Source: Rhodospirillales bacterium
Lineage (GTDB): Bacteria; Pseudomonadota; Alphaproteobacteria; ATCC43930; CGMCC-115725
Assembly (NCBI GenBank): GCA_028291405.1
Contig: JAQGID010000046.1
Span: forward strand, 1 to 53,126
Direction of reading: 5' to 3'
DNA length: 53,126 bases
Made by a program: the position numbers and the translations under genes. The notes beneath the pieces are model-generated. The model was not told the DNA's origin. It saw nothing but the letters and a program-made list of their open reading frames with translations, and did not search any database. Of this stretch, positions 39,892-44,943 are shown one piece after another. Numbering within the stretch: position 1 is the first letter of the stretch; every line of letters starts with the position of its first letter.

Positions 39892-40353
39892 GCGGCGGTT
39901 CGCGTACGCCGCTGCGAAGGCATTCAGACCGCCTCCGGAACGTAACATTTCGAGCATGCGCGCTAAGCGTTGGAATTCGCCTCACAAATTCCTCGTCGCG
40001 CGCGCCGGGCATTCGTCGATTGCCAGTTGTTCACAGGAGGTCGTAAGAGGTTAACCGAGTCGGGCTGAATCCGTTCATTCACCGATTGTTACAATGAATT
40101 GAAGTTCTGTTTACGCTTGACATCGATTAAATCGAGCGTTTTCAATGGATTGGTAAATTTGCACAGATTTTGTGCAAACCGAGAGATCGCTTGGATTGGC
40201 GCGCGCTGAATGCCACAGCACCATCCTTTTCAACAGAGTTTTCCACAGGTCCCGTGGATATCCCGGAGCGGCGCTTCAGGCGCGCGAACACCGCGCTGCG
40301 CCATGCCAAGAGTTCATTGAAGGAAATACCGGGGGACGTCATCTTTGCTGGTG
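39892..40353. promoter_or_regulatory. uvrC upstream region with two palindromes
   Basis: A 460-base gap that is clearly AT-richer than its neighbours. It holds TTGACA (40117-40122) directly followed by the perfect palindrome TCGATTAAATCGA (40123-40135), and a 21-base palindrome with arms TTTGCACA and TGTGCAAA around GATTT (40158-40178). The first sits where an operator would overlap a -35 box. Short frames in the region have no convincing start signals or known relatives. No LexA-type box is visible. The region most likely carries the uvrC promoter and binding sites for one or two dimeric regulators. Confidence 0.5.
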
Positions 40354-42519
40354 ATGATGATGACAGATGACACCGATTTATCCGTCACCGAGCCGACGCC
40401 CGCGGCCGACGAAACCGACGGCGCGGGCGGGCGCCGCGGCAGCCTGACGAACGGCATCGCGGTCATCCGCGAGATCGTCAAGACGCTGCCGCAACTGCCG
40501 GGCGTCTATCGCATGCTCGATGCCAAGGGTGACGCTGTCTATGTCGGCAAGGCGCGCAACCTCCGGCACCGCGTCGTCAACTACACGCATGTGGCCGACC
40601 TCTCGAACCGCCTCCGTCGCATGATCGCCGAGACGGCGTCGATGGAGATCGTCGTCACGCATACCGAGGTCGAGGCGTTGCTGCTCGAGATCAATCTGAT
40701 CAAACAGCTGATGCCGCGCTACAACGTATTGTTGCGCGACGACAAGTCGTTTCCGTATATCGAACTCGCCGGCGGACATGCGTTTCCGAAGCTTTCCAAG
40801 CACCGCGGCGCGCGGGCGGCGGATAGCGACTATTTCGGCCCCTTCGCGTCTGCCGGCTCGGTCAACCGCACGCTGATTGCGCTGCAGCGTGCGTTCCTGC
40901 TGCGGTCGTGCAGCGACAGCGTCTTCGCGACCCGCTCACGGCCCTGCCTGCTCTATCAGATCAAGCGCTGCAGCGCGCCCTGCGTCGGGCGGATCGATCC
41001 CGAGAGCTACGGGCTGCTCCTCGGCGAGGCGCGCAGTTTCCTCACGGGCCATAGCCGCGAGGTGCAAACCGAGCTCGCGCAGCGCATGCAGGAGGCCTCG
41101 GCCGAACTCGACTACGAGGCGGCGGCGATGATTCGCGATCGGATCCGCGCCTTGACGCATGTCCAGGGGCAGCAGGACATCAACATCGAGAGCGTCGGCG
41201 ACGCCGACGTCATCGCGGCGCACCAGGACGGCGGCCACACCTGCGTCCAGGTCTTCTTCTTCCGTGGCGGACAGAACTGGGGCAACCGCGCCTATTTCCC
41301 GACCCACGACCGACAGCTGCCGCTCGACGAGGTGCTGTCCTCCTTCATCGGCCAGTTTTACGACAACAAGCCGCCGCCGAAGCTCATCCTGTTGAGCCAG
41401 CCGGTTGCCGAGGCGGGGTTGCTCGCCGAGGCGCTGTCGCTGCAGGCCGGCCGCAAGATCGAGCTGCTCGTGCCGCGGCGCGGCGACAAGGCGCGGATCG
41501 TCAAGCACGCCCTCAACAACGCGCGCGAGGCGCTCGGCCGCCGTCTGGCGGAGAGCGCGACGCAGCGCACGCTGCTCGACGGCGTCGCTCAGGTCTTCGG
41601 CCTCGCCGCGCCGCCCCGTCGCATCGAGGTCTACGACAACAGCCATATCCAGGGCACGAATGCGATCGGCGCGATGATCGTCGCCGGTCCCGACGGGCTG
41701 ATGAAGAATGCCTATCGCAAGTTCAACATCCGCGGCGATGGGGCAGGGGCATCGGTGGCGCTCGACCTTTCCTCCCTTGAGGGGGAGGATGTCCGAAGCC
41801 AAGGGCTTCGGTCAGGTGGGGGGACCGGCGCGGAGCGCCAAGAAAATTCCTTGGCCGATGTCCCGGCGATGATGTCGCCGGCCGGCAACCCCCCGCCCGT
41901 CAGCGCTAACGCGTTGCCGACCTCCCCCTCAAGGGGGGAGGATCAAACGGGAGAGGCGAGTGCAAGTGTCCCGCTCGTGCCCGGCGACGACTACGGCATG
42001 ATGCGCGAGGTGTTGCAGCGGCGCTTTGCGCGGGCCCTCAAGGAGGATCCGGATCACGAGCGCGGCGGCTGGCCGGATCTCGTCCTGCTCGACGGCGGCG
42101 CCGGCCAGCTCTCGATCGCGCTCGCCGTCTTCGCCGAGCTCGGCATCACCGACGTCTGCGTCGCGGCGATCGCCAAGGGGCCGGACCGCAACGCCGGCCG
42201 CGAACGGTTCTTCATGCCGGGACGCGCCCCGTTCAGCCTGGAGCCGCGCGATCCCGTTCTCTACTTCCTGCAGCGACTGCGCGACGAGGCGCACCGTTTC
42301 GCGATCGGCACGCATCGCGCCAAACGCGCCAAGGCGATCGGGCAATCGCTGCTCGACGACGTGCCCGGTATCGGGATTCGCCGCAAGAAGGCGCTGCTGT
42401 TGCATTTCGGTTCGGCGCGGATGGTGGCGCGTGCCGGGCTCGCCGAGCTCGAGCGCGTCCAGGGAATCTCGAAGGGAGTGGCGAAAAAGATTTATGAGCA
42501 TTTCCACGTCAGTGGCTAG
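40354..42519 (+). CDS. uvrC: excinuclease ABC subunit UvrC, with internal repeat insertion
   Basis: Endonuclease subunit of nucleotide excision repair that makes the two cuts beside a lesion, about 721 residues. The GIY-YIG domain begins [20 protein letters not shown]; the cysteine block is [16 protein letters not shown]; the UVR domain is [20 protein letters not shown]; the RNase H-like half begins [20 protein letters not shown]; helix-hairpin-helix motifs end the chain ([17 protein letters not shown]). Between KFNIRG and [12 protein letters not shown] about 80 extra residues occur where the family has only a few. They are largely encoded by a palindromic repeat element. Several start codons in tandem (TTG, ATG x3) precede; the first ATG is used. 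Confidence 0.95.
41770..41942. repeat. palindromic repeat element inserted in frame in uvrC
   Basis: A 173-base element bounded by inverted copies of TCCTCCC(CCC)TTGAGGGGGAGG; the left copy lacks three C. Inside, CCGAAGCC/GGCTTCGG forms a hairpin, and GGGGGGACCGGC faces GCCGGCAACCCCCC, so the whole could fold as a long branched stem. It resembles intergenic palindromic units I recall from alphaproteobacterial genomes. It is read through without a stop in the uvrC frame, adding a polar linker (for example [17 protein letters not shown]). It is the only copy in this window, and no target duplication is clear. Confidence 0.75.
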
Positions 42520-42567: not shown

Positions 42568-43179
42568 ATGCTGACCAGCCTGCCGAACCTGCTCACCATC
42601 TCGCGGATCGCGGTCATCCCGGTGGTGGTCGCGAGTTTCTATCTGCCGGATTTCTGGTCGCAGTGGCTCGCCTGCGGCCTCTTCATCGCGGCCTGCATCA
42701 CCGATTGGCTCGACGGCCATTTCGCCCGCCTGTGGGAGCAGCAATCAGAGATCGGCCGCTTCCTCGATCCGATCGCCGACAAGCTGCTGGTGGCGGCCGC
42801 GCTCTTCATGCTGGCGGCAACGGGCCGCATCGCCGACTGGACGATCTTGCCGGCGCTCGTGATCCTGATGCGCGAGATCCTGGTTTCCGGCCTCCGGGAA
42901 TATCTCGCCGGGCTGCGCGTCAGCGTTCCGGTGTCGCGCCTCGCGAAATGGAAGACCGGCATCCAGATGACGGCGATCGGGTTTCTGCTCGTCGGCGAGG
43001 CGGGGCCGCGATTCCTGCCGGTCCAGGGAATCGGCGAGCTGCTGCTCTGCATCGCGGCGCTACTCACCCTGGTCACCGGTTACGATTACCTTCACGCCGG
43101 GCTGCCGCATATGACGGACGAGCGTCCGGCACCGCGCCCGCCGTCTATCAAGGCCATCAAGCCCAGCCGCGTGCTCTGA
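42568..43179 (+). CDS. pgsA: CDP-diacylglycerol--glycerol-3-phosphate 3-phosphatidyltransferase
   Basis: Inner-membrane enzyme of 203 residues making phosphatidylglycerol-phosphate, the committed step to anionic phospholipids. The CDP-alcohol phosphotransferase motif DG(x)2AR(x)8G(x)3D(x)3D is complete in WLDGHFARLWEQQSEIGRF followed by LDPIADK. Hydrophobic helices surround it (SLPNLLTISRIAVIPVVVAS, and WTILPALVILMREILVSGL). It follows uvrC by 48 bases, a conserved order in alphaproteobacteria. The C-terminus ends in a basic tail (PRPPSIKAIKPSRVL) slightly longer than in E. coli. Confidence 0.94.
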   Translation: MLTSLPNLLTISRIAVIPVVVASFYLPDFWSQWLACGLFIAACITDWLDGHFARLWEQQSEIGRFLDPIADKLLVAAALFMLAATGRIADWTILPALVILMREILVSGLREYLAGLRVSVPVSRLAKWKTGIQMTAIGFLLVGEAGPRFLPVQGIGELLLCIAALLTLVTGYDYLHAGLPHMTDERPAPRPPSIKAIKPSRVL

Positions 43180-43186
43180 GGCTGGG

Positions 43187-43690
43187 ATGCGGATCTTCGG
43201 CCTCGCCGGATGGAGCGGCAGCGGCAAGACCAGCCTCCTCGTCCGCCTGCTGCCCGAGCTCAACCGCCGCGGACTGCGCGTCTCGACGCTGAAACATGCG
43301 CATCACGGTTTCGACGTCGACCAGCCCGGCAAGGACAGCTGGGAGCATCGCAACGCCGGCGCCGTCGAGGTCATGGTCAGCTCGACGCGGCGCTGGGCGC
43401 TGATGCACGAGCATCGCGGCGCGCCTGAAGCGAGCCTCGACGAGCTCCTGACTCATATGACGCCCGTCGATCTCGTGATCGTCGAGGGCTACAAGGCGCA
43501 TCCGCACCCCAAGCTCGAGGTGCACCGTGCCAGCGTCGGCAAGACGCTGCTCTGTCATGACGATCCCGATGTCGTCGCCGTCGCGGCCGATACGCCGCTC
43601 GCCGGTCTGACGATCCCGGTCCTGCGGCTCGACGACACGGCGGGGATCGCCGACTTCGTCCTCGCGCATTTCCGCCTCGCGGCCGCCTGA
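43187..43690 (+). CDS. mobB: molybdopterin-guanine dinucleotide biosynthesis protein B
   Basis: GTP-binding accessory protein of 167 residues for attaching GMP to molybdopterin. The P-loop is GLAGWSGSGKTSLLVRLLP at the start, followed by LKHAHHGFDVDQPGKDSW and the family block VDLVIVEGYKAHPHPKLEVH. It begins 7 bases after pgsA and its stop overlaps the moeA start by one base (TGATG), placing it in a cofactor operon. No mobA is seen in the window. Confidence 0.94.
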   Translation: MRIFGLAGWSGSGKTSLLVRLLPELNRRGLRVSTLKHAHHGFDVDQPGKDSWEHRNAGAVEVMVSSTRRWALMHEHRGAPEASLDELLTHMTPVDLVIVEGYKAHPHPKLEVHRASVGKTLLCHDDPDVVAVAADTPLAGLTIPVLRLDDTAGIADFVLAHFRLAAA

Positions 43691-44943
43691 TGGCCCAACT
43701 CAGCAACGATTGCTTCGCCTTCGGCGGCGAGCTGATGACCGAGGCGGCGGCGCTCGAAATCCTCCGCAGCCGGGTTCTGCCGCTGCCCGAGAGCGAGAGT
43801 GTCGGGCTCGTCGCCGCGCTCGGCCGCGTCCTCGCCGTCGACGTGGTGGCGTCGCGCAACGTGCCGCCGCACGACAATGCCGCCGTCGACGGCTACGCGC
43901 TCTTCCATGCCGATCTCGCCGCCGAGGCGGAGACGGTCCTGCCCGTCGGCGGGCGGGCCGCGGCCGGTCATCCGCTGGGGCGCGTTGCGCACCGCGGCGA
44001 GGCGATCCGCATCTTTACCGGAGCGCCGATGCCGGACGGTCCCGATACCGTGATGATGCAGGAGGACTGCATCGAGGAGTCCGGGAGCGTCAGGCTGCGC
44101 CCCGGCATCAAGCTCGGCGCCAATCGTCGCCGCGCCGGCGAGGACATCATGTCCGGCCATGTCGCGATCCCCGCCGGACGCCGGCTGCGCGCCCAGGAGA
44201 TCGGCGTCGCCGCATCGCTTGGCGTCGCCGGGCTCTCCGTCTACCGCCCTCTGCGCGTCGCGATCGTCTCGACCGGCGACGAACTGCGCGAGCCCGGCGC
44301 CGCGCTGCCGCCCGGCGCCATCTACGACGCCAATCGCTACGTCATCGCGGCGTTGCTGCGCGGGCTGGGCTGCGCCGTCAGCGATCTCGGGATCCTGCCC
44401 GATGACCGCGCGGCGATCCGTGCCGCGCTCGCCTCCGCCGCCGCCGACCATGACCTCGTCGTCAGCTCGGGCGGCATGTCGACCGGCCAGGAAGATCACG
44501 TCAAGGCGGCCGTCGAGGCGCAAGGCGCGCTGCATTTCTGGCGGCTCGCGATTCGTCCCGGCCGTCCCGTCGCGCTCGGCCAGATCGGCCGCGTCCCGTT
44601 CGTCGGCCTCCCCGGCAACCCGGTCGCGGTCATGGTGACGTTCCTGACCCTGGCGCGGCCGCTGATCCTCCGCCTCGCCGGCGCCACCGACATCTTGTCG
44701 CGGGGCTACACCGTGCGCGCCGGCTTCGACTACAAGAAGAAGCTGGGCCGTCGCGAGTATCTTCGGGTCCGGCTGGAGCGCAGCGATGCCGGCTGGCTCG
44801 CGCGCAAATTCCCGCGCGACGGCGCCGGCATCCTGATCTCGATGGTCGAATCCGACGGGCTGCTCGTCGTCTCGGAGGCGGTGACCAAGCTCGCCGTCGG
44901 CGATCCCGTCGAGTTCCTGCCGTTTCGCGAGCTGCTCGACTGA
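43690..44943 (+). CDS. moeA: molybdopterin molybdotransferase MoeA
   Basis: Enzyme of 417 residues that inserts molybdate into adenylylated molybdopterin. Typical blocks: VASRNVPPHDNAAVDGYAL, VGGRAAAGHPLGRVAHRGEA, IRIFTGAPMPDGPDTVMMQE, then the MoCF-binding segment VAIVSTGDELREPGAALPPG and VVSSGGMSTGQEDHVKAAVE, and VGLPGNPVAVMVTFLTLARP near the end. Length is normal. The start overlaps the mobB stop. About 670 bases and a minus-strand hypothetical gene separate it from moaD. Confidence 0.95.
   Translation: MAQLSNDCFAFGGELMTEAAALEILRSRVLPLPESESVGLVAALGRVLAVDVVASRNVPPHDNAAVDGYALFHADLAAEAETVLPVGGRAAAGHPLGRVAHRGEAIRIFTGAPMPDGPDTVMMQEDCIEESGSVRLRPGIKLGANRRRAGEDIMSGHVAIPAGRRLRAQEIGVAASLGVAGLSVYRPLRVAIVSTGDELREPGAALPPGAIYDANRYVIAALLRGLGCAVSDLGILPDDRAAIRAALASAAADHDLVVSSGGMSTGQEDHVKAAVEAQGALHFWRLAIRPGRPVALGQIGRVPFVGLPGNPVAVMVTFLTLARPLILRLAGATDILSRGYTVRAGFDYKKKLGRREYLRVRLERSDAGWLARKFPRDGAGILISMVESDGLLVVSEAVTKLAVGDPVEFLPFRELLD

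Follow-up and report, generated by a model that had tools for sequence, protein, structure and literature searches.

A palindromic repeat lying in frame in a UvrC loop of an uncultured alphaproteobacterium, and its possible kinship to DUF559-bearing elements

The Rickettsia palindromic elements (RPEs) were reportedly described by Ogata et al. in 2000 and 2002. According to the available parts of PMC2229807 and PMC10969869, they are palindromes of ∼105–150 nt that occur both between genes and in frame within conserved genes. In-frame copies of GTAG and CGTC REPs have been reported from free-living bacteria, many of them in repair genes (Di Nocera 2013, PMC3733652), and the accessible text of that paper suggests that intragenic REPs inserted neutrally where a linker or loop is flexible. 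Its main text, as far as it was available, mentions proteins of the excinuclease ABC complex as well as UvrABCD, and does not contain the word uvrC. MITEs with in-frame ORFs, namely ERIC/RU-1, YPAL/RU-2 and the Coxiella QMITEs, are described in the available portions of PMC2229807, PMC2759123 and PMC5896051. In-frame palindromes are therefore already known, as RPEs and as intragenic REPs (PMC3733652), while for the repeated use of one site a single published example was found in the text at hand; PMC3733652 has, in its accessible part, one same-site REP case, in recB of two Xanthomonas. Since that paper already covers palindromes that lie in frame in repair genes, and in genes of free-living bacteria, the original prediction that such an event would be a rarity in this setting was too strong.

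The element considered here, R1, lies in the middle of uvrC in a window of 53,126 nucleotides (the whole stretch of DNA that was analysed, from a draft Rhodospirillales genome). The gene (40345..42519, forward strand, as are all the parts of it located below) is a 724-aa ORF recognised by TIGR00194 in two stretches (507.7 bits). R1 occupies 174 nt (41768..41941), as indicated by blastn copies, the reading frame and a covariance model score of 153.4 bits, this copy being among the 13 from which the model was built. The left terminal arm (41770..41788), itself palindromic and about three C short of the canonical form, and the right terminal arm (41921..41941) were recognised from their complementarity and from comparison of copies; 41770-41788 and 41921-41939 are 95% complementary, and the window contains two instances of the arm pattern (three or fewer mismatches) where 0.01 would be expected. 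Between the arms, the fold and the consensus fold both give inner hairpin A (CCGAAGCC/GGCTTCGG, 41790..41814), the right side of a middle stem (41889..41897) and inner hairpin C (CAGCGC/GCGTTG, 41898..41919), and the consensus fold places the left side of the middle stem (GGTGGGGGG) at 41815..41823. For the single strand of 41765-41947 the fold energy is −120.3 kcal/mol (z −7.57), which 0 of 200 shuffles equalled, and the block is the top outlier among 663 tiled 160-nt windows once GC is regressed out. The uvrC frame has no stop across the element, whose peptide in that frame ends ...PTSPSRGE. Presumably, the stretch 3′ of the gene (42568-44943) holds a CDP-alcohol phosphatidyltransferase-like gene and then mobB-like and moeA-like genes. 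The self-complementary block with inverted ends and an open frame that had been read from the letters is thus borne out; no known RNA family in Rfam matched in 41500-42200.

R1 sits in an enlarged loop of 84 codons (41731..41982, residues 463-546, KFNI to GDDYG), delimited from the loops of relatives, PDB 3c65 and a pLDDT of about 25. By sequence alignment, PDB 3c65 has 4 residues at the equivalent loop. A gain of roughly 80 residues had been proposed; the loop is indeed of that size, but only about 58 of its 84 residues are the element, which on the sequence would be read as that many extra UvrC residues, and the remainder is lineage-specific linker. PF08459 matches UvrC in two stretches, the better of which begins at residue 547, and the loop sits inside the RNase H-like domain, not between two separate domains as had been supposed. 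The accompanying expectation of a disordered loop fared better: in an AlphaFold model of low overall confidence (mean 62.3, 12 sequences), residues 462-547 form a coil with pLDDT below 50 and no secondary structure, flanked by a strand and a helix.

The covariance model gave 38 strand matches, representing 21 places, in the window's own genome (G000), which adds 20 further places to the uvrC copy, as the original reading required. The congener holds one match and weaker ones occur elsewhere, with any match at all in 15 of 41 genomes; these counts are lower bounds because only part of the first-look candidates was scored (71 of 7134 in G000). Canonical R1 measures 162 nt, exactly so in five measured copies, with ends resembling TTTCCTCCCCCCTTGAGGGGGAGG...CCTCCCCCTCAAGGGGGGAGG and a consensus fold (13 copies) of 41 pairs, two of them with changes on both sides. 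In a coding-potential test, two of 22 R1 stretches were intragenic, namely those in uvrC and in a CbiC fusion; the 22 were blast-derived, counting both halves (L011 and L018) of one copy, C56, including L025, which is absent from the covariance-model list, and leaving out the model place C362:7905-8016. Both host genes use one and the same strand and frame of R1, and 14 of 15 copies have no stop in that frame. No target-site duplication was seen by eye in the flanks of 15 copies. At L007:1476-1511, the end of one R1 copy and its flank are tandemly duplicated over 18 nt (GATTTACCCTCCCCCCTT twice).

In form and behaviour R1 resembles the RPEs, as a dispersed palindrome with in-frame copies in genes, its canonical length being slightly above 100–150 nt. 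It works like them, as originally proposed, but to call it an RPE would go beyond the evidence. The host is different, and R1 is GC-rich. R1 also has a DUF559-bearing relative, whereas none is mentioned for RPEs in the available parts of PMC2229807 and PMC10969869. Compared with intragenic REPs, R1 is a long composite that lacks the GTAG and CGTC terminal tags. Its ends read TTTCCTCC...GGAGG, followed in most cases by A-rich flank, in place of a GTAG tag, and are without the CGTC tag, 8–9 bp stem and CCA tail of CGTC REPs. R1 is short, contains no full gene and has terminal inverted repeats; it shares its size, the usual terminal inverted repeats and the occasional in-frame fusions with the MITEs named above, as far as their published descriptions were available. 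It differs from them in that no target duplication was seen and in that its putative gene-bearing partner carries DUF559 and no known transposase.

Among the 39 family genomes searched for UvrC, 33 had a readable loop, which ranged from 6 to 84 aa. The linker of the present protein was not shared by relatives, as the original prediction required, and R1 is absent from their UvrC, yet repeats of other families occupy the same loop in several of them. Hairpin repeats were found in eight of the 33 genomes, two of them weak. Six loops reached z ≤ −4.5 (G000, G001, G014, G025, G032 and G034), while those of G019 and G031 hold weaker, motif-bearing hairpins that were scored as repeats by eye or family match despite a weak whole-linker z (for G031, −2.6 in one test and −0.5 in another). 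Long loops in G033 and G061 were considered and rejected, as they do not fold as hairpins. All 16 internal insertions of at least 15 aa share one gap in an alignment of 35 proteins (624 core columns). Outside the genome set, the motif was readable in 66 of the best 80 UvrC loci from a longer list; 55 of these 66 have a loop of 6–7 aa, and among their testable long loops none fell below z −2.1, except in one record with the loop of G019. The inserts are themselves dispersed, with 57 strand matches in their own genome for G001, 88 for G014 and 29 for G032. They need not each be a separate family, because those of G014, G025, G034, G031 and, in part, G001 have a sequence core in common; judged by sequence, the loop has received at least four families, namely R1, this group, that of G032 and that of G019. 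Within two pairs of sister genomes, G000/G001 and G025/G032, the repeats at the loop differ.

Other proteins show the same reuse of loops. The second intragenic R1 copy lies in a gene that joins an N-terminal domain, which we take to be DUF429-like, to CbiC. NCBIfam lists this domain as an unknown domain of a MobB fusion. Across nine loci, the linker carries repeat-like inserts in G000 (z −8.8), G001 (−3.3), G014 (−1.1, called a repeat by eye or family match despite the weak whole-linker z), G015 (−3.6) and G011 (−4.7); not all of these are different families, since G001 and G015 have a CTCTCCGCCCC core in common. The linker is short in G006, and the genes are unfused in G010, G005 and G003. 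As a side observation, the fusion is present in some family genomes only, its linker often with a palindromic repeat (L195-L203). Among 60 copies of non-R1 families (37 from G014, 8 from G032 and 15 from G001), six were flagged as intragenic, in genes for an aldolase/SDR, an Lhr-like helicase, CtaA, GlyS, a molybdopterin enzyme and UreF, at an in-gene score cut-off of 0.15 that we chose and below which L245, L262 and L280 fell. L262 is nevertheless spanned by one family profile; it is a CofG-CofH fusion of G014 with two palindromic repeats in its linker.

The GlyS and CtaA loops were selected from G014 alone and then checked in relatives. In G020 the GlyS loop is occupied by a hairpin (z −6.1) unlike that of G014, and the remaining 25 among 27 readable loops measure 1–12 aa; seven further insertions of at least 15 aa (z −2.2 or higher) fall elsewhere in the protein, so that in GlyS only the hairpin inserts share one gap. 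The CtaA loop of G016 contains a CGTC-type palindrome (CGTCATTCC...GGAATGACG; z −8.6) with 81 strand matches in its genome, and that of G019 a repeat-like insert counted by eye or family match (z −0.4), while the remaining 22 of 26 readable loops span 8–16 aa. A 25-aa CtaA loop in G008 was rejected, having no hairpin. In G016, G019 and G020 the frames are open on either side of the loop.

We consider it very probable that a copy of R1 inserted in frame in the UvrC RNase H-like domain, at a loop that tolerates differences in length and is probably disordered, and that the copy was tolerated there. Because the GlyS and CtaA loops hold other repeats in some relatives, repeats probably fall in many places and are kept where a loop permits them. 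Intragenic copies would persist mainly where an open frame meets such a loop, and as survival depends on these two features the inserted peptide is probably neutral. A function for the insert in UvrC is improbable. Palindromes of several families appear to have added new segments to the same loops of proteins in this uncultured group, a countable natural experiment on the protein sites that accept new sequence.

The rival that survives best, though we find it improbable, is that the UvrC loop received a single hairpin in an ancestor, over which gene conversion or recombination later wrote the abundant repeat family of each lineage. Overwriting would explain why the sister genomes G000/G001 and G025/G032 (SH-aLRT 99 for each pair) carry differing inserts, and would suit both the core shared by several inserts and a tree that requires only five changes of hairpin presence, three of them forced by well-supported branches. 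It sits poorly with the short, hairpin-free loops interleaved within the same genera, and with the CtaA cases, which span three genera while the other members examined have loops of 8–10 aa. Selection is a good deal more doubtful: UvrC and nucleotide excision repair might be tuned by the greater length of the loop or by a hairpin in the mRNA, and repair genes do recur, both in the list of PMC3733652, as far as accessible, and here (UvrC and the Lhr-like helicase). The available text of that paper even raises, as speculation, a contribution of REP inserts in repair genes to the making of mutators. Yet the inserts belong to different families, CtaA, GlyS, UreF and cofactor genes show the same pattern, and the UvrC loop is predicted as low-confidence coil. 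An assembly or binning artefact is hardly credible, for although the draft genome has 461 contigs and assemblies break at repeats, the block lies in frame within a 53-kb contig between conserved protein on either side, and other genomes hold similar inserts. Tolerated insertion of R1 is retained as the preferred reading.

The R1 copy C56 of G000 (L018:1099-1567, ∼469 bp) points to how the repeat may spread, since a DUF559 gene (PF04480, 132.5 bits) lies between its halves. It is a gene-bearing element that shares the ends of R1 in the same genome, as MITEs have, and DUF559 is a putative nuclease. In G009, from another genus of the family, a 67% identical DUF559 protein lies between R1-type ends (L067:1500-2044); such elements are known from these two genomes only, at one copy each. 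R1 might, with less certainty than its insertion in UvrC, be a non-autonomous, MITE-like relative of this longer element, and the putative nuclease might drive its spread. A Y1 transposase (RAYT) was considered as mobiliser and set aside, as PF01797 has no match in G000 (96.75% complete) or G001; it matches in 5 of 21 genomes and 5 of 14 controls. REPtrons, in the accessible description (PMC3733652), likewise have a nuclease-type gene between palindromes that are also dispersed alone, but theirs is a Y1 transposase and that of the R1-type element belongs to the DUF559 family.

The 32 nt that lie just inside the left middle stem are, in 12 of 13 solo R1 copies, closer to the DUF559 3′ end than to any of 174 other windows of the C56 element; the lead is narrow for L008 and L015 and is lost in L016. 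The uvrC copy shows this resemblance in the 32 nt after the left side of its middle stem. The right inner edge stands out as DUF559-like in four of the 13, the uvrC copy not among them. From such edge homology, DUF559 may have borrowed the repeat instead of fathering it.

DUF559, which we take to be akin to Vsr-like nucleases, is associated with repeats beyond this family as well. A plasmid collection yielded no match to R1 and 43 records matching DUF559, several of the genes being annotated there as endonuclease domain-containing proteins. From these records, 19 genes were hand-picked for variety, the first 12 before and the last 7 after their flanks had been viewed, with some sharing a strain or genus. 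Flanking inverted repeats (score 14 or more) were found at 11 of the 19, against 4 of 1455 control intervals (five 45-kb stretches) and none among 54 short genes; Fisher values are indicative only, because the 1455 intervals overlap and come from five plasmids. No inverted flanks reached the cut-off at the other eight (two from Azospirillum, and one each from Sphingomonas p1, Shinella, Sinorhizobium K101, Methylobacterium, Picosynechococcus and Synechocystis). It is possible, though we hold it only tentatively, that DUF559 putative nucleases mark a class of mobile element not yet described, in which inverted hairpin repeats enclose the gene. Many of the solo palindromes scattered in Alphaproteobacteria, Deinococcus and cyanobacteria, among them R1 in uvrC, would then be non-autonomous descendants of this class that have entered proteins again and again at loops able to accept them. 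We infer that DUF559 elements may mobilise such palindromes; if so, a mechanism testable in vitro would be available for many palindrome families that are now orphans. A search of open-licence papers returned no title on repeats in the UvrC loop, nor on DUF559 with repeats.

The inverted repeats at DUF559 measure 114 nt in Sinorhizobium meliloti, 56 nt in Deinococcus psychrotolerans and 40 nt in Pseudanabaena. The S. meliloti flank recurs at no fewer than 39 places on its own plasmid and has matches in 269 records, while those of Pseudanabaena and Deinococcus occur at 8 and 3 places on theirs. On Sphingomonas plasmids (L357, L360), DUF559 genes lie between sufB and sufC and within a transhydrogenase operon.
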